A DNA stretch of 10,192 bases from Thermococci archaeon (lineage in GTDB: Archaea > Methanobacteriota_B > Thermococci > Methanofastidiosales > B48-G16), in assembly GCA_030668905.1 (NCBI GenBank), contig DAOVEQ010000017.1, positions 1 to 10,192 on the forward strand. The letters are read 5' to 3'. Under the pieces are notes generated by a model. That model saw only the letters and a list, made by a program, of their open reading frames with translations, was not told where the DNA came from and searched no databases. Positions within the stretch are counted from its first letter, which is position 1, and every line of letters starts with the position of its first letter. Position numbers and translations under genes: made by a program. Below are positions 920 through 7,328 of this stretch, piece by piece.

Positions 920-1487
920 AGAATTTTGGATGATCGAACTTCAGAAGAGAGGCAGAGATGTATTGTACCTCAAGGGATATAGGGAGTATGTAGATGTTGA
1001 AAGAAGTTATAAACTGACAAAAGTTATTGTTCTTCTTTATGTTGTCTCCGTTTCCCTGTTTTTATATGGGGGTATGATAACATCTTTCTTTTGGAAATGG
1101 ATATACTTACTTTTGACATGCTTTTTTCTCTTTTCCCTTATCATATCAATTTACTTAGAAAATTTACAGTCTTTCGGTTTTAAAAAAGAAAAAGAGATAG
1201 AAATAAGGAATTATACAGAGAATTTTGCAGAAATAATAGAAAGGGCATCTAAGGATTATAAACTTTCAAAGGACATAGTAGAGGACAAAATATTAGACAT
1301 ATATTCCATAAGATTATCAAAAAGAATGGATATTAATTTGTATGAAGCTAAAAAGAATATTGGAAATGAATTTTCAGAAAAACTTAAAAGTGCGAGAAAT
1401 TTAGAAGGAGAGGAGTATTTAAATGCAATTAAAAATATTGTAGAAGAGATAGAGGAGGGATATTATGGATATAAAAGAGGTGCATGA
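912..1487 (+). CDS. Two-helix membrane protein of the MoxR operon, function unknown
   Basis: I do not recognise this 191-residue protein. It has a short charged N-terminus, two membrane helices (about 37-56 and 61-82) joined by a tight turn, and a hydrophilic tail of about 105 residues rich in Lys, Glu and Ile that looks mostly helical. It overlaps the preceding DUF4129 gene by 8 bases and the moxR gene by 23 bases, so it is translated as part of the same unit. An AAGGTG at 899-904, 7 bases before the ATG, matches the Shine-Dalgarno and supports this start. Small uncharacterised membrane proteins are common in MoxR-DUF58 clusters, and the long tail could be a docking surface for the ATPase; that is inference from position only. 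Confidence 0.85.
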   Translation: MPEEFWMIELQKRGRDVLYLKGYREYVDVERSYKLTKVIVLLYVVSVSLFLYGGMITSFFWKWIYLLLTCFFLFSLIISIYLENLQSFGFKKEKEIEIRNYTENFAEIIERASKDYKLSKDIVEDKILDIYSIRLSKRMDINLYEAKKNIGNEFSEKLKSARNLEGEEYLNAIKNIVEEIEEGYYGYKRGA

Positions 1488-2409
1488 GTTAGGAGATAGT
1501 ATAGTTAAGGAAGTTTCTAAGGCTATTGTGGGTAAAAGAAATGTTCTGGAACTCTTCTTAGTAGGGGTTTTAGCCAATGGGCATTTGCTTATTGAGGATC
1601 TTCCAGGATTGGCAAAAACAATGATAGCGAGGTCATTCTCTATGGTGATGGATCTCGAGTTTTCCAGAATTCAGTTCACACCAGATCTGCTTCCAGCGGA
1701 TATTTTAGGAACGTATATATTCAAAAAGGATCAGTTCGAATTCAGGAAAGGTCCTATCTTTGCGAACATAGTTTTAGCAGATGAGATCAATAGGGCGCCG
1801 CCAAAAACGCAGTCTGCTCTGCTCGAAGTAATGGAGGAAAGACAGATAACTATTGAAGGAAAGAGTCATCCCGCCAAATCCCCTTTTTTTGTAATAGCCA
1901 CTCAGAATCCGATAGAGATGGAAGGAACTTATCCTCTTCCTGAAGCCCAGATAGATAGATTCATGATGAGGCTTGATGTCGGATATCCCGAAAAAAAAGA
2001 CGAGATAGAAATTTTAAATAGAAGAATAGAGAGAAAAACAGATAATTTTGTCCTGGAAAAACTTGTAAATAAAGAAGATATCATAAAAATGCAGAAAGCC
2101 ATAGAAGAAGTTTATTTGAGTGAATCCGTTCTTGAGTATATAGTAAATATCGTTTCAAGAACGAGGGAGGTAAAAGATACAGAGATTGGTGCTTCTCCCC
2201 GAGGATCGTTAGCTTTAATGAAGCTTTCAAAAGCACTGGCAGCTCTGGAAGGAAGAGAGTACGCTATTCCAGATGATATAAAAGCTGTGGCCATACCAGC
2301 ATTGGCACACAGAATAATTTTAAGGAGAGATTTATGGTATACAAAGATAACCCAGGCAGACATAATAAAGAATATCTTAGAAAGTGTTCCAGTGCCGAAA
2401 TTCAAGTGA
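1465..2409 (+). CDS. moxR: MoxR-family AAA+ ATPase
   Basis: A complete 314-residue MoxR ATPase. The Walker A region is LPGLAKT (46-52), the Ala-before-Lys variant common in this family. Walker B is IVLADE (102-107), followed by the family-typical INRAPPKTQSALLEVMEE. Sensor 1 is ATQNP (145-149) with the MEGTYPLPEAQIDRF continuation that carries the arginine of the active site. The sensor 2 region is SPRG (244-247) in the C-terminal lid. MoxR proteins are cytoplasmic, ring-forming ATPases thought to act as chaperones in maturing or activating von Willebrand-type and membrane complexes, usually with a DUF58 partner, which is the next gene. A strong GGAGG at 1454-1458 fixes the start, although it lies inside the preceding gene. 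The DUF58 gene begins 4 bases after the stop. The substrate is not known. Confidence 0.97.
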   Translation: MDIKEVHELGDSIVKEVSKAIVGKRNVLELFLVGVLANGHLLIEDLPGLAKTMIARSFSMVMDLEFSRIQFTPDLLPADILGTYIFKKDQFEFRKGPIFANIVLADEINRAPPKTQSALLEVMEERQITIEGKSHPAKSPFFVIATQNPIEMEGTYPLPEAQIDRFMMRLDVGYPEKKDEIEILNRRIERKTDNFVLEKLVNKEDIIKMQKAIEEVYLSESVLEYIVNIVSRTREVKDTEIGASPRGSLALMKLSKALAALEGREYAIPDDIKAVAIPALAHRIILRRDLWYTKITQADIIKNILESVPVPKFK

Positions 2410-2413
2410 TTTT

Positions 2414-3628
2414 ATGGGTAAGGTAAGATATACAACTAAATTTGTTTATACCTTATCAATAGTTTTTCTTCTGGTAATAATATCTATAATAAGTTTGAAG
2501 TTCTGGCTCTTGTATAGTGTATATCCGTTTTTAATCCTGATTTTTTATTCCTGGTACTATGTTTATTCCGAGAATATGGATATTATCTTAGAGAGAACAA
2601 TAGACAAAAGGAGATTTATAGAAGGGGAGACAGCAACAGTGAGTATAAAACTCGACACGAACGGGAAAAAGCTTCTGAAACTCTGGGAGAGATACAATGA
2701 AAATCTAAAAATTTTTTTGGGGTATGTAGAAAATGAAAAAACTTTTAAATATAAGATCAATGTAAAAAGAGATATCTATATATTCCAGGATATAATTGTT
2801 GACATCAAAGATCCCTTTTCACTTTTTTATAAAAGAAAGGAGTTTAAAACAATGGATTATATTCTCGGACTTCCAAAAATAGAGGATATAAGATTAAAAA
2901 TGAATGTTAAAGGATACAAAGTTGTTTCTGGAGCTTTCCCGTCTCCGAAGATGGGAGGCGGTGTAGAGTTTCATGCTATAAGAGACTATGTTCCAGGTGA
3001 TCCGTTCAAGGTAATAAACTGGAAATCTACAGCCAGATTTGGGAAACTAATGTCAAATGAGTATGAAAGTGAAAAGAAAGTGGATTTTATAATAGTGTTG
3101 GATACTATTATAGAAGGGAAAAAAGCTCTGGATTATGGAGTAAGAGCAGCTGTTTCTGTGCTGTTCTATGCTCTGAAAACAGGGATACCTTTTGGGGTTC
3201 TTGTTTGCAGTGATGTTGGTTATTATTTGAGGCCTGATTATGGAAGAACTCATTTTTTTAAGGCTGTCGATTTTCTGTGCAAGACAAAAGCAAAAAAGAG
3301 GGTGAACATCGCAGGACAGGTGGATAATTATGGGAGGAGGTTCTTTCCTCCGAGAGCAAAGGTGATCTTTATTTCTCCTATGATAGATGATAGAGCTCTG
3401 GAAGCTGTAAAGATTCTCAGAGGGTACAGGTACGAGGTTTTGGTAATAACACCTTCAGTATTTTCCGTAGAGTTTATGGAGATGGAAAAAACAAAAGAAA
3501 ATGAGCTTGCTTATAAAATTTTGGAGTTAAATAGAAGAAATATCATGACAGAACTGAAGAGATACGCTAATGTTGTAAACTGGAAGGCAGAAATTCCCCT
3601 CAGAGCTGCTCTGGAGGATGTATTATGA
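2414..3628 (+). CDS. DUF58 protein (MoxR partner, vWA-like fold)
   Basis: This 404-residue protein has two N-terminal membrane helices (about 9-29 and 31-51), a beta-rich middle, and the DUF58 signature at about 182-217: GGGVEFHAIRDYVPGD, then NWKSTARFGKL. A von Willebrand A-like region follows from VDFIIVLDT (223-231). In many vWA domains the corresponding Asp starts a DxSxS metal site; here it reads DTIIEG, so a classic metal site is not visible. DUF58 proteins are encoded with MoxR and are thought to work with it at the membrane. I chose ATG 2414 rather than in-frame GTG 2384 because it lies 4 bases after the moxR stop, has a GTGAT element at 2406-2410, and starts just ahead of the first helix. 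The last four bases overlap the next gene (ATGA). Confidence 0.93.
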   Translation: MGKVRYTTKFVYTLSIVFLLVIISIISLKFWLLYSVYPFLILIFYSWYYVYSENMDIILERTIDKRRFIEGETATVSIKLDTNGKKLLKLWERYNENLKIFLGYVENEKTFKYKINVKRDIYIFQDIIVDIKDPFSLFYKRKEFKTMDYILGLPKIEDIRLKMNVKGYKVVSGAFPSPKMGGGVEFHAIRDYVPGDPFKVINWKSTARFGKLMSNEYESEKKVDFIIVLDTIIEGKKALDYGVRAAVSVLFYALKTGIPFGVLVCSDVGYYLRPDYGRTHFFKAVDFLCKTKAKKRVNIAGQVDNYGRRFFPPRAKVIFISPMIDDRALEAVKILRGYRYEVLVITPSVFSVEFMEMEKTKENELAYKILELNRRNIMTELKRYANVVNWKAEIPLRAALEDVL

Positions 3629-4117: not shown

Positions 4118-5455
4118 ATGCAAGATTTGACATCCGGAAGTATAAGGAAGAATGTAATTTATCTGGCATGGCCTGCCGTTATTACGATGCTTCTTCAGAT
4201 GATAGTAGGGATTGCAGATATTGCAATGGTGGGCAGGCTCGGTGCCAATGAACTTGCATCTGTCGGACTCGGAAGACAGATCATATTTCTATTTCAGGGG
4301 CTGATCTTTGGAATGAGCATAGGTGTTACAGCCTTAATAGCGAGATACATAGGAGCAAAAGAAAAAGAAAAAGCTGTATTAGTTGGAGAACAATCGATCA
4401 TTCTTGGAATATTCCTTTCTTTTGTGATAGGATTTCCTGGATTTTTCTATGGTGATACCTTTTTCAGAGTTCTTGGTGCAGAAAGTATTGTTGTATCCTT
4501 AGGTTACGATTACTTACAAATAATGTTTTTTGGGCTATTTACAGTCTTTATTACATTTATAATTAATGGGATTTTCAGGGGAATCGGCGATACAAAAACA
4601 CCCATGTACTTGATGGGATTTATTAATATTCTGAATGTTATTTTGAACTATTTTCTCATCTTCGGGATCTGGAAATTTCCTTTTTTGGGTGTAAAAGGAG
4701 CTGCAATAGCTACCGTATTCTCACGTGGACTGGGCATATTGATAGGGAGTTATCTTTTATATTCTGGTAAAAAAGGGATTAAATTAAGACTCCGCTATCA
4801 AATTGATTTTTCGATCATAAAAAAGATCATGAGGATAGGACTCCCTGCGTCCGGAGAGAGACTGATATACTCAAGTGCAGGTATAATCTACACGATGATT
4901 GTGGTTTCCTTCGGAACATTTGCCATAGCGGCACACCAGGTAGCTTTACGTTCCGAGAGTTTTTCGTTTATGCCGGGGTTTGGATTTGCAATTGCTGCCA
5001 CCACTCTTGTCGGCCAGAATCTGGGAGCTGTAAAACCGCAAAGAGCAGAGAAAAGTGCGTACGAATCTCTAAAACTGGCATTGCTCGTAATGGGGTCTAT
5101 GGGCGTTCTATTTTTCATTTTTCCTGAGTATTTTGTAAGGATATTTACAAATGATCCAGATGTTATAAAACTTGCAGTTCCATGCCTCAGAATAGTCGCC
5201 ATTTCAGAACCTATGCTTGCCGCTACTTTTGTTCTCGCTGGAAGTTTGAGAGGTGCGGGGGATACTGTTTACCCGATGGTAATTGCAGGGATTTCTCAAT
5301 GGTTTGTCAGATTACCGTTAGCATATCTCTTTGGCGTGACATTGGGTTATGGACTCATAGGTGCATGGATAGCTATGACTGTAGAAACAATAATTGGGGG
5401 CTTGTTATTTTACATAAGATTCAAAAGAGGCAAATGGAAAAAAATTAAGGTTTAA
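4118..5455 (+). CDS. MATE-family multidrug/metabolite exporter (NorM-like)
   Basis: A complete 445-residue MATE transporter with about 12 membrane helices in two homologous halves. The first half begins with WPAVITMLLQMIVGIADIAM and continues into VGRLGANELASVGLGRQI. The second begins around residue 240 with GLPASGERLIYSSAGIIY, then AAHQVALRSESF and ATTLVGQNLGA. The repeated FRGIGDTKTPMY and LRGAGDTVYPM motifs, one per half, are family hallmarks. MATE proteins export organic cations, drugs or metabolites, driven by sodium or protons; the substrate here cannot be told. The length is normal and nothing is missing. The gene stands alone behind its own leaderless promoter and its last 11 bases overlap the end of the opposite-strand trm5 gene. 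No regulator lies beside it. Confidence 0.97.
   Translation: MQDLTSGSIRKNVIYLAWPAVITMLLQMIVGIADIAMVGRLGANELASVGLGRQIIFLFQGLIFGMSIGVTALIARYIGAKEKEKAVLVGEQSIILGIFLSFVIGFPGFFYGDTFFRVLGAESIVVSLGYDYLQIMFFGLFTVFITFIINGIFRGIGDTKTPMYLMGFINILNVILNYFLIFGIWKFPFLGVKGAAIATVFSRGLGILIGSYLLYSGKKGIKLRLRYQIDFSIIKKIMRIGLPASGERLIYSSAGIIYTMIVVSFGTFAIAAHQVALRSESFSFMPGFGFAIAATTLVGQNLGAVKPQRAEKSAYESLKLALLVMGSMGVLFFIFPEYFVRIFTNDPDVIKLAVPCLRIVAISEPMLAATFVLAGSLRGAGDTVYPMVIAGISQWFVRLPLAYLFGVTLGYGLIGAWIAMTVETIIGGLLFYIRFKRGKWKKIKV
5438..5444 (-). terminator. Possible oligo-T terminator after trm5
   Basis: On the minus strand the trm5 stop codon TAA is followed at once by seven T residues. Archaeal RNA polymerase stops at T-rich tracts without needing a hairpin, so this run could end the methyltransferase-trm5 transcript. 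It lies inside the 3' end of the MATE gene, where it encodes lysines, so it may be coincidental. Confidence 0.35.
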
Positions 5456-6308
5456 TATCATATCTCCATACAAATACTCTGGGAGAATAGGATTTCACCT
5501 GCTGTACATACTCCATGTTAAATTTTATCTCTTCTTCAGGTTTTATAGAATACAGATGTATTATCCCCTTCTTCTTTATCTTGCTTAAAGCTGCATCCAG
5601 GAATTCAAGAGAGTTTTTAGGGAGATTCATTATAATCCTGTCAAACTCAGGTAATTTTTTAACAACGTCTTTACAGTCTCCAAGATACGGGAAAACATTC
5701 TTTACTTTGTTGATCTCTATATTCTTTTTCAGATAGCGAAAAGCATCTGGATTTATGTCTATACTGTGAACTTCAACTTTTTTCTTTTTCGCAATCAAAA
5801 TGGAAAAAGGTCCTACTCCCGCAAACATATCTAGTACCCTTTCTCCGGCTTTAACTTTTTTAGATATTCTATGCCTCTCCGTTGCAAGCCTCGGATTGAA
5901 ATATACTTTCTCTATATCGAGCATGTATCTGCAGCCGTATTCTCTATGTATCGTTTCCGTATTTTTTGTGCCTGCCAGATATACATATTTTCTCGTTCTG
6001 TATGTTCCATCCACGTTTGTTTCTTTTTTGTAGACAGATCTAACGTTTTTTCTTCGAAGAATAGAGCTATCATAATTTTCAACTATGGCAATATCGCCAA
6101 TAAGATCAAACTTAAACTCAAATTTCTCCCTCTCTTTTAACTTTTCAAACTCAGTCTCTACGATCTCTCCTTCAGTTTTTTTAAGTATAGGAAAAACTAG
6201 ATAGTCTCCAAGGTTCTTTATTTTATAGCTTTTATCCAAGATTCCATTTTGCAGGAGAATTTTTCTTGTTTTTTCACCCTCTTCTTTTCTTATCTTTAAT
6301 CCTAACAT
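5445..6308 (-). CDS. trm5: tRNA (guanine(37)-N1)-methyltransferase Trm5
   Basis: Trm5 transfers a methyl group from S-adenosylmethionine to N1 of G37 beside the anticodon, which prevents frameshifting. The 287-residue protein shows a small N-terminal D1-like segment (about 1-42), then D2, with TYRTR (102-106) and the VYFNPRLATERHRI block (135-148). The Rossmann catalytic domain has VLDMFAGVGPFSI (158-170), SIDINP (182-187) and the NLP motif (228-230). The residues I recall as functional in the Methanocaldococcus jannaschii enzyme (R145, Y177, R181, E185, N265) have counterparts at R104, Y136, R140, E144 and N228. It is about 50 residues shorter than that enzyme, mainly in the D1-D2 linker. 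It overlaps the preceding methyltransferase gene by 7 bases, with AAAGGGAT just before the ATG, so it is the second gene of that unit. Confidence 0.95.
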   Translation of the reverse strand: MLGLKIRKEEGEKTRKILLQNGILDKSYKIKNLGDYLVFPILKKTEGEIVETEFEKLKEREKFEFKFDLIGDIAIVENYDSSILRRKNVRSVYKKETNVDGTYRTRKYVYLAGTKNTETIHREYGCRYMLDIEKVYFNPRLATERHRISKKVKAGERVLDMFAGVGPFSILIAKKKKVEVHSIDINPDAFRYLKKNIEINKVKNVFPYLGDCKDVVKKLPEFDRIIMNLPKNSLEFLDAALSKIKKKGIIHLYSIKPEEEIKFNMEYVQQVKSYSPRVFVWRYDIKP

Positions 6309-6889
6309 TTTATCCCTTTTAAAACTCTGTAGCCACTTTTCCTATCAACTGTTTCACAGTTTCCAAAAATCTCTTCAATTTTTTCTTCATAACTCTTGGC
6401 ACCCTGTTTTGTTCTCACGACCATATAAAATCTTCCTTCTTCCTTTAAAAAATCTGGAACCCTCTCTATAATTTTAAAAACAAACTCTTTTCCCATTCTG
6501 AAGGGCGGATTCGTGACTAAGATATCAAAATTCTTTATCTCGAACTCAAAAAAATCTTTTTTCATTACACTTACATTGGAACACTTATTCAAAACTGTAT
6601 TTCTTCTTGCCAGATGTACAGCCCTCCTGTTTATATCGATCATGTAAACTTTTCTTACAAATTTTGAGATTACTATGCCTATAATCCCATATCCGCATCC
6701 TATGTCAAGAACAGTATCACTTTTTTCTGCCTCTACAGATTTTACAAGAAGTTTACTTCCCTTATCAATCTTTTTTCTCGAGAAAACTCCTCTATCTGTT
6801 AAAAACTCAAACTTAATCCCTTTTATATTAGCTTCTATCTTTAAAATCTCGTGGTCTGTTTTCTGTCTTTCCGAGAAATAATGATCCAT
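6302..6889 (-). CDS. RsmC-like SAM-dependent methyltransferase, MJ0882 family
   Basis: A 195-residue class I methyltransferase of the small-domain (MTS) type. It opens with HYFSERQ, then FEFLTDRGVFSRKKIDKGSKLL, SAM motif I VLDIGCGYGIIG (60-71), MIDINRRA (83-90), and the catalytic NPPF (127-130) that marks amino-group methylation. The C-terminal TKQGAKS and GYRVLKG match the MJ0882 family of known structure, whose RNA substrate I do not know to be settled; rRNA or tRNA guanine or adenine is likely. The frame is open further upstream to ATG 6952. I chose ATG 6889 because the family starts near HYFSE, because it lies about 25 bases from a TATA box, and because the longer version would run through that promoter into the S8e gene. 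It is cotranscribed with trm5. Confidence 0.92.
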   Translation of the reverse strand: MDHYFSERQKTDHEILKIEANIKGIKFEFLTDRGVFSRKKIDKGSKLLVKSVEAEKSDTVLDIGCGYGIIGIVISKFVRKVYMIDINRRAVHLARRNTVLNKCSNVSVMKKDFFEFEIKNFDILVTNPPFRMGKEFVFKIIERVPDFLKEEGRFYMVVRTKQGAKSYEEKIEEIFGNCETVDRKSGYRVLKGIKC

Positions 6890-6910
6890 GATAGTTATAT
6901 TATGCAAAAT

Positions 6911-6918
6911 TTTATAAA
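6911..6918. promoter_or_regulatory. Shared palindromic TATA box between rps8e and the methyltransferase gene
   Basis: TTTATAAA is a perfect palindrome centred at 6914.5. The ATG of the minus-strand methyltransferase (6889) is 25.5 bases away and the plus-strand ATG at 6939 is 24.5 bases away, both at the distance expected for an archaeal transcription start. Both flanks carry A-rich, BRE-like bases when read towards the box (GCAAAA on the plus strand, GAAAATCG on the minus strand). I see no second TATA box in the 61 bases between the two starts, so one TBP site probably serves both genes. Confidence 0.7.
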
Positions 6919-6950
6919 CGATTTTCAGTTCTATTAAAATGGTGAGAATC

Positions 6951-7328
6951 ATGGGTATTTATCAAGGTAGATCAAGAAGAAAAAAAAGTGGAGGAAGATA
7001 CAGGAAATACAGAGATAAGAAAAAGTATGAAATGGGTAGAGAGCCTGTATTCACGAGAATAGGAGAAGAAAAAAAGAAGATTGTCAGAGTTAAAGGTGGA
7101 AATAGGAAGATAAAACTTAAATCTGCACTATATGCCAACATAAGCAGTCCTGAAGGTATTAAAAAGGTTAAGATTTTAAATGTAGAGGAAAACCTGGCAA
7201 ATAAACAGTTTACAAGAAGAAATATCCTCACAAAAGGTGCGATAATAGAGACAGAGATAGGAAAAGCAAGGATAACCTCGAGACCCGGGCAGCATGGCAT
7301 TGTAAACGGTGTTCTTTTAAGTAAGTGA
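6951..7328 (+). CDS. rps8e: 30S ribosomal protein S8e
   Basis: S8e is a small-subunit protein found in archaea and eukaryotes and not in bacteria, so it fixes the domain of life. The 125-residue protein starts [19 protein letters not shown], has the conserved [10 protein letters not shown], then [12 protein letters not shown] and the C-terminal [16 protein letters not shown], all family landmarks, and is of normal length and very basic. An in-frame ATG at 6939 would add MVRI. I chose 6951 because homologues start at M-x-I/W-x-QGRS and because GGTGA at 6941-6945, 5 bases upstream, is a proper Shine-Dalgarno. With transcription starting near 6939 the leader would be only about 12 bases. It is divergent from the methyltransferase-trm5 pair, so translation genes flank the shared promoter on both sides. 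Confidence 0.97.

Follow-up and report, generated by a model that had tools for sequence, protein, structure and literature searches.

The divergent gene pair and its start codons

The window, i.e. the whole stretch of 10,192 nucleotides analysed here, belongs to the draft genome of a Thermococci archaeon (223 contigs totalling 1.15 Mb; completeness 69.8%, contamination 2.3%). Within it, rps8e, coding for ribosomal protein eS8 (6951–7328, plus strand; PF01201, with TIGR00307 matching from residue 1), is divergently arranged with the first gene of a minus-strand unit, which codes for an MJ0882-like methyltransferase of 195 amino acids (6302–6889; PF05175). Compared with solved structures, this protein matches MJ0882 best (1dus, E 7.8e-50), and its nearest named match is a protein of Thermococci archaeon isolate B48_G16 (91% identity). 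Its gene overlaps by 7 bases with that of a Trm5b-like tRNA(G37) methyltransferase (5445–6308, minus strand). The best solved relative of the latter is Trm5b (5yac, E 5.4e-64), with MJ0883 in second place; the score lies under the NCBIfam cut-off for Trm5b. An earlier sequence-only reading had named an eS8, an MJ0882 relative and a Trm5 enzyme at this locus, and these identities were borne out. An Rfam search of the window returned no match. Elsewhere in the window, at 1465–3628, a gene for a MoxR-type AAA ATPase is followed by one for a DUF58 protein. MoxR-DUF58 is a familiar cluster, and upstream of the pair a DUF4129-like protein is encoded, just under the Pfam cut-off.

Between the start codons of the two genes (6889, minus; 6951, plus) lies a gap of 61 bp with 77% A+T. 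The methyltransferase start had previously been placed at 6889, and this position was confirmed: the N-terminus (MDHYF or MEHYF) is conserved and the codon lies 25.5 bases off the centre of the TATA box described below. For rps8e the same reading had used 6939, which is an in-frame ATG, but the eS8 model TIGR00307 matches from residue 1 of the protein beginning at 6951. Moreover, a Shine-Dalgarno-like GGTGA is found at 6941–6945 (plus strand); it is also present in the f1 congeners and in f4 (for the families see below) and reads GGTGT or GGTGA in f3. In the congener L100, the ATG equivalent to 6939 is out of frame owing to a single-base difference. We therefore assign the rps8e start to ATG 6951. 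The codon-to-box distances are consequently 25.5 bases for the methyltransferase and 36.5 bases for rps8e, which leaves rps8e with a short leader. Position 6939–6941 is plausible as the transcription start of rps8e: from the box spacing in this genome and in P. furiosus, the start site is predicted at ~6940 (6938–6942, plus strand) with a leader of ~11 nt.

On the methyltransferase side, the 15 nt preceding the start codon at 6889 (CATAATATAACTATC, minus strand) contain neither GGTG nor GGAG, so that a Shine-Dalgarno motif is absent. The box-to-codon distance of 25.5 bases is also the commonest one in the genome sample described below, as for a leaderless gene. Judged by these features, the methyltransferase transcript is probably leaderless, with a predicted start site at or beside the ATG (~6889; 6887–6890, minus strand) and a C as the −1 base.

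A TATA box readable on both strands

Promoter matrices were derived from a sample of the same genome comprising the window and 36 further contigs (248,326 bases in total, 255 genes called). Expectation-maximisation seeded with TTTATAAA on 101 upstream regions, the two genes of this gap being left out, gave a first matrix, CCAAAAAATTTATAAA, consisting of BRE and TATA box, the latter with the consensus TTTATAAA. A second matrix, CAAAAAAATTTATATA, was obtained from 63 tandem-gene regions with four of five seeds and has the TATA consensus TTTATATA; the fifth seed gave a form shifted by one base. Boxes could be placed in 68 cases among the 101 upstream regions and were commonest at 25.5 bases before the start codon (18 boxes), in a histogram that is approximate because genes, and hence start codons, were called by a simple script. 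The same peak appeared in a matrix-free count of T-rich hexamers, with the first T 26–30 bases ahead of the start codon (50 matches in 135 upstream regions, overlapping ones counted). From this peak, leaderless genes are probably common in this genome, in contrast to the median leader of 13 nt given for P. furiosus (PMC6640164).

The palindrome described by the earlier reading is present in the gap: TTTATAAA at 6911–6918 is self-complementary and centred at 6914.5. It scored 8.0 on the plus and 6.6 on the minus strand with the first matrix, and 6.1 and 7.3, respectively, with the tandem-only matrix, i.e. it is a near-symmetric TATA element usable on both strands. The claim that the gap holds no other TATA box stands insofar as this is the sole match above 5 on either strand, one-base shifts allowed; a weaker plus-strand element, TTATATT at 6894–6901, does exist and scored 2.8 and 4.8 with the two matrices. 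Over ~6780–7120 the first matrix found one further 16-mer above 5 on each strand, both beyond the gap, and no other minus-strand box above 5 between 6916 and 7120.

Both sides of the box had also been called BRE-like, which holds to a moderate degree. The flank for rps8e is TGCAAAAT (6903–6910, plus strand), the weakest among the four genomes of the genus (congeners: TGCAAAAC, TGGAAACC and TAGAAAAC), and 15% of random 8-mers match equally well. The flank for the methyltransferase, GAAAATCG (6919–6926, minus strand), is likewise a moderate match, within the top ~9% of random 8-mers. Compared by hand with the P. furiosus consensus RRAAA (−36 to −32), the plus side (CAAAA) agrees in 4 of 5 positions and the minus side (AAATC) in 3 of 5. 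The reverse BRE is modest.

When the 61-bp gap was shuffled base by base, the motif TTTATAAA arose in 2.2% of cases, and an 8-bp palindrome of any kind in 44%. It is near the genome's TATA consensus (TTTATAAA, TTTATATA) and occurs in 65 copies in the 248-kb sample; the palindrome alone is therefore ordinary. The symmetry might accordingly be a chance by-product of an A+T-rich genome with a near-palindromic TATA consensus, its conservation being due to rps8e alone. BRE flanks that each fall within the top 9–15% of random 8-mers are compatible with this, as is the pattern of conservation within the genus, where the methyltransferase side of the gap is the less conserved one and the rps8e side (6919–6950) is near invariant (0 substitutions, 1 substitution, and 1 substitution with 1 indel in the three congeners). 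On the other hand, the methyltransferase needs a promoter and no other is found in the window's gap. Together with the comparison to family f5 given below, this makes a by-product of base composition improbable to us. The site is remarkable for its two-sided context, its spacing and its conservation, not for the palindrome alone. Ranked by the weaker of the flanking BREs, the site of the window is fourth out of 64 scored copies of TTTATAAA and second out of the 27 intergenic ones. Tandem promoters were as two-sided as the window (reverse score of at least 6.6, first matrix) in 2 of 38 cases; with the second matrix, reverse scores of at least 5, 6 and 7 were reached by 5, 3 and 2 out of 51 tandem controls, respectively.

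By the same rule, a box is shared in three of nine divergent gaps of 30–80 bp with the first matrix and in four of nine with the second, the window included. Hence the arrangement recurs in this genome. A 48-bp divergent gap of the same genome (L072:2868–2917) has one TTTAAA-type box at 24.5 bases from both start codons; its right-hand gene encodes a protein of 213 amino acids resembling the C-terminus of ERCC4/Hef, and two of three congeners have the box sequence as well, the locus of the third being truncated by a contig end. For the Xpf-like pair, CCAAGAATTTAAAAA is found in its own locus and in two congeners (L149, L150, L152), L151 being cut by the contig end. The reverse score drops to 3.9 in L150 and the best-scoring box of L152 lies elsewhere, so that sharing is not proven for this pair. 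For another pair, with a DUF7121 gene (L157–L160), the box scoring highest was located 90.5–93.5 bases upstream and was not the shared one.

Conservation within the order and the contrast with family f5

The comparison of rps8e loci covers the class Thermococci, to which all genomes returned by a search of the whole phylum belonged. Of the 21 genomes of the order, 19 yielded an rps8e gene, and the analysis took in every one of these (f1, four genomes; f2, two; f3, four; f4, nine). Its divergent neighbour is the MJ0882-like methyltransferase throughout f1, f2 and f3. The Trm5b-like gene adjoins the methyltransferase in the f1 and f3 loci too; no Trm5 match followed it in the two f2 loci (L103, L104). 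At the same box, the nine f4 genomes carry a different gene. In L102 (422–1429) this is hypE according to the family model (NCBIfam TIGR02124; 385.5 bits, cut-off 251.6); the remaining eight f4 loci show the N-terminus of the L102 partner and an open frame of 335 amino acids. The pairing of rps8e with the methyltransferase was absent from the nine f4 loci over the ~0.7 kb searched upstream, and from 20 loci of family f5 over flanks of, as a rule, 1.5 kb. The gene opposite rps8e thus differs between families, while its spacing to the box is kept.

With the matrix trained on one genome and applied to the other families, the reverse score of the rps8e box was 6.0–11.0 in all 19 genomes. The distance from the box centre to the partner ATG is 24.5–28.5 bases (mean 26.6, sd 1.31; 19 genomes), the search being limited to 16–32 bases from the box and the ATGs found bearing conserved N-termini. 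The distance to the rps8e start is 25.5–60.5 bases (mean 42.7, sd 9.6; 19 genomes). The most compact loci are those of f2 (L103, L104), where the whole gap measures 49 bp with the box in the middle, at 24.5 and 25.5 bases from the start codons; these genomes are apparently leaderless on both sides. In 16 of the 19 genomes the partner ATG is preceded by C or T, as preferred by initiators; in f3 this holds for only one of four. Measured against random intergenic 8-mers, the median reverse flank has a P of 0.117 in f1, 0.140 in f2, 0.065 in f3, 0.044 in f4 and 0.63 in f5; f1–f4 combine to p = 0.011 on the assumption that families are independent, which they are not fully.

The box reads TTTATAAA in 15 of the 19 genomes, including all four of the genus, and TTTTTAAA in the four f3 genomes. 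Conservation of the palindrome across relatives, proposed as a check by the earlier reading, is therefore found within the genus, but f3 keeps the gene pair with TTTTTAAA. What is conserved is thus not the exact palindrome; by the terms of that reading, its loss would count against the claim only in close relatives that keep the gene pair. As the f3 box is still two-way by score, sharing seems to outlive the exact palindrome. This bears also on the idea that a dimeric regulator of both genes uses the palindrome as its operator, and that it is not a basal TATA box. Symmetric operators between divergent genes are a textbook pattern, and the present box is symmetric and so positioned. Nevertheless, it has basal TATA spacing from both expected starts and matches the promoter matrix of the genome, and in f3 this match is kept without the 8-bp palindrome. 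We regard an operator as very improbable.

Alternatively, the promoter may be directed towards rps8e only, leftward RNA being weak noise and the methyltransferase operon being transcribed via this noise or from a promoter inside rps8e. The plus score indeed exceeds the minus score in all 18 other genomes of the order (8.5–12.4 and 6.0–11.0, respectively). Furthermore, three of the four f3 genomes possess a stronger minus-strand box (8.6–11.7) located 54–59 bp beyond the shared one, over the rps8e start codon; this outer box may simply reflect the coding sequence, or it may act as a second promoter from which the partner is transcribed with a leader. In all, 7 of the 19 genomes, these three included, have minus-strand matches above 6 besides the shared box. 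The four f3 genomes (at 10 bases) and L099 (at 21 bases) have an extra box nearer the partner, too close for normal spacing, and weak extra matches occur in the f4 loci L110 and L112 (6.3 and 6.4). Against a solely directional promoter stand the lack of any other minus-strand box above 5 in the window between the gap's box and 7120, and the spacing, which varies by 4 bases for the partner but by 35 for rps8e. The loci of f5 also argue against it.

In f5, rps8e was matched in 89 genomes (108 in the class less the 19 of the order), and the best-scoring 33 of these 89, a non-random choice, were examined. The rps8e box is CTTATAAA in 32 of these best 33 and CTTATAAG in one. Although forward scores are at least equal to those of the order, reverse scores range from −4.8 to 1.1 when one-base shifts are allowed, none of the best 33 of 89 reaching 5, a value attained by all 19 genomes of the order; with two-base shifts, scores of up to 4.4 were seen (25 loci). 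This difference speaks against a mere by-product of base composition. Instead of a reverse match, 27 of the best 33 of 89 have a separate minus-strand box of at least 6 towards the partner, which is absent from the other six. In one out of 25 f5 loci (L121), an in-frame partner ATG is positioned 27.5 bases from the rps8e box, with a low reverse score. On these grounds, a promoter serving rps8e alone is considered unlikely, if less so than the two other alternatives.

Probable shared use of the box and comparison with known promoters

Two results argue for a box shared by both genes. Reverse scores exceed 6 in 19 of 19 genomes of the order, compared with 3 of 51 tandem controls and 0 of the best-scoring 33 of 89 f5 genomes, and the spacing to the partner is tight (sd 1.3) while that to rps8e is loose (sd 9.6). 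We consider it likely that one BRE-TATA-BRE box in the 61-bp gap drives both genes. The earlier proposal of a minimal bidirectional promoter is thus upheld in its core, namely one box for two genes, by the single box, the leaderless spacing, the conservation in the order and the contrast with f5; its BREs turned out to be only moderate.

According to this model, the gap would constitute one BRE-TATA-BRE core promoter read both ways. TBP would bind the self-complementary box and TFB would engage either the plus-side or the minus-side BRE, setting the direction of RNA polymerase, with one orientation occupied at a time. Rightward transcription would start at ~6940 and yield an rps8e mRNA with a ~11-nt leader bearing GGTGA. 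Leftward transcription would start on or next to the A of ATG 6889, and its leaderless mRNA would encode the MJ0882-like and Trm5b-like methyltransferases. Where the two transcripts start, how the box is occupied and how strong each direction is are predictions from sequence. By score, rps8e would be the stronger side in the other 18 genomes, with both sides near balanced in the window genome.

P. furiosus belongs to the class Thermococci, as does the window. Archaeal TBP binding is described as nearly symmetric, the direction being determined by TFB binding (PMC6640164). In that study, the BRE-TATA-BRE promoter of PF1918 yielded sense and antisense transcripts in vitro at nearly equal levels, from start sites 49 bp apart, and this distance was 49–50 bp for bidirectional promoters of P. 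furiosus (PMC6640164), compared with ~51 bp predicted here. PF1918 and others of this type resemble the present box in their near-symmetric TATA element and in the weaker BRE on the second side. The second product differs. In P. furiosus the second RNA is antisense; it was observed in vivo and, for PF1918, in vitro, and was treated as probable noise, while the signals of head-to-head genes could not be separated (PMC6640164). Here, judged by sequence comparison, it would be a protein-coding mRNA, predicted to be leaderless. This kind of promoter is already demonstrated in P. furiosus (PMC6640164). What the loci compared here add to it are the order-wide conservation, the two protein-coding products and the different partners. 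The two-way arrangement at rps8e was not found in print in the open-licence literature.

A related principle is reportedly known from bacteria as well as archaea: a study by Warman et al. (2021, Nat Microbiol) has in its title divergent transcription from symmetric promoters of both. Going by that title, the principle is the same as here, i.e. a symmetric core element fires both ways. Follow-up work in bacteria deals with E. coli and Salmonella and with symmetry of the −10 element. For E. coli bidirectional promoters, competition is reported only if one direction is strong (PMC12825309). The mutual competition for one TBP expected by the earlier reading is accordingly not taken for granted here.

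The earlier reading saw in the arrangement a coupling of a ribosomal protein with RNA modification. As a general purpose this does not hold, the partner being hypE in the nine f4 genomes. A better fit is the economy of a compact gap whose client gene is exchanged. The conservation suggests that selection maintains the shared box for the production of two mRNAs, of which one encodes a ribosomal protein. It is an even call, in our estimation, whether the rps8e promoter of the order is an old, fixed two-way box with an exchangeable left-hand client (the methyltransferase in f1–f3, hypE in f4), either client being kept at a leaderless or near-leaderless spacing from the one BRE-TATA-BRE element, whereas the f5 box works in one direction and most of the neighbouring genes there have their own. 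If so, the TATA box itself would be a shared, inheritable part by which successive divergent genes are recruited. The 19 candidate shared-box loci, with four families and two partners, form a natural test set against f5 with its mostly separate boxes. This set allows direct measurement of how the strength of the TFB-BRE contact divides one TBP site between two genes.

The two enzyme families of the leftward unit are also those of MJ0882 and MJ0883 in Methanocaldococcus jannaschii, one MJ0882-like and the other Trm5b-like. From their consecutive locus numbers, we take these two genes to be neighbours in that genome.
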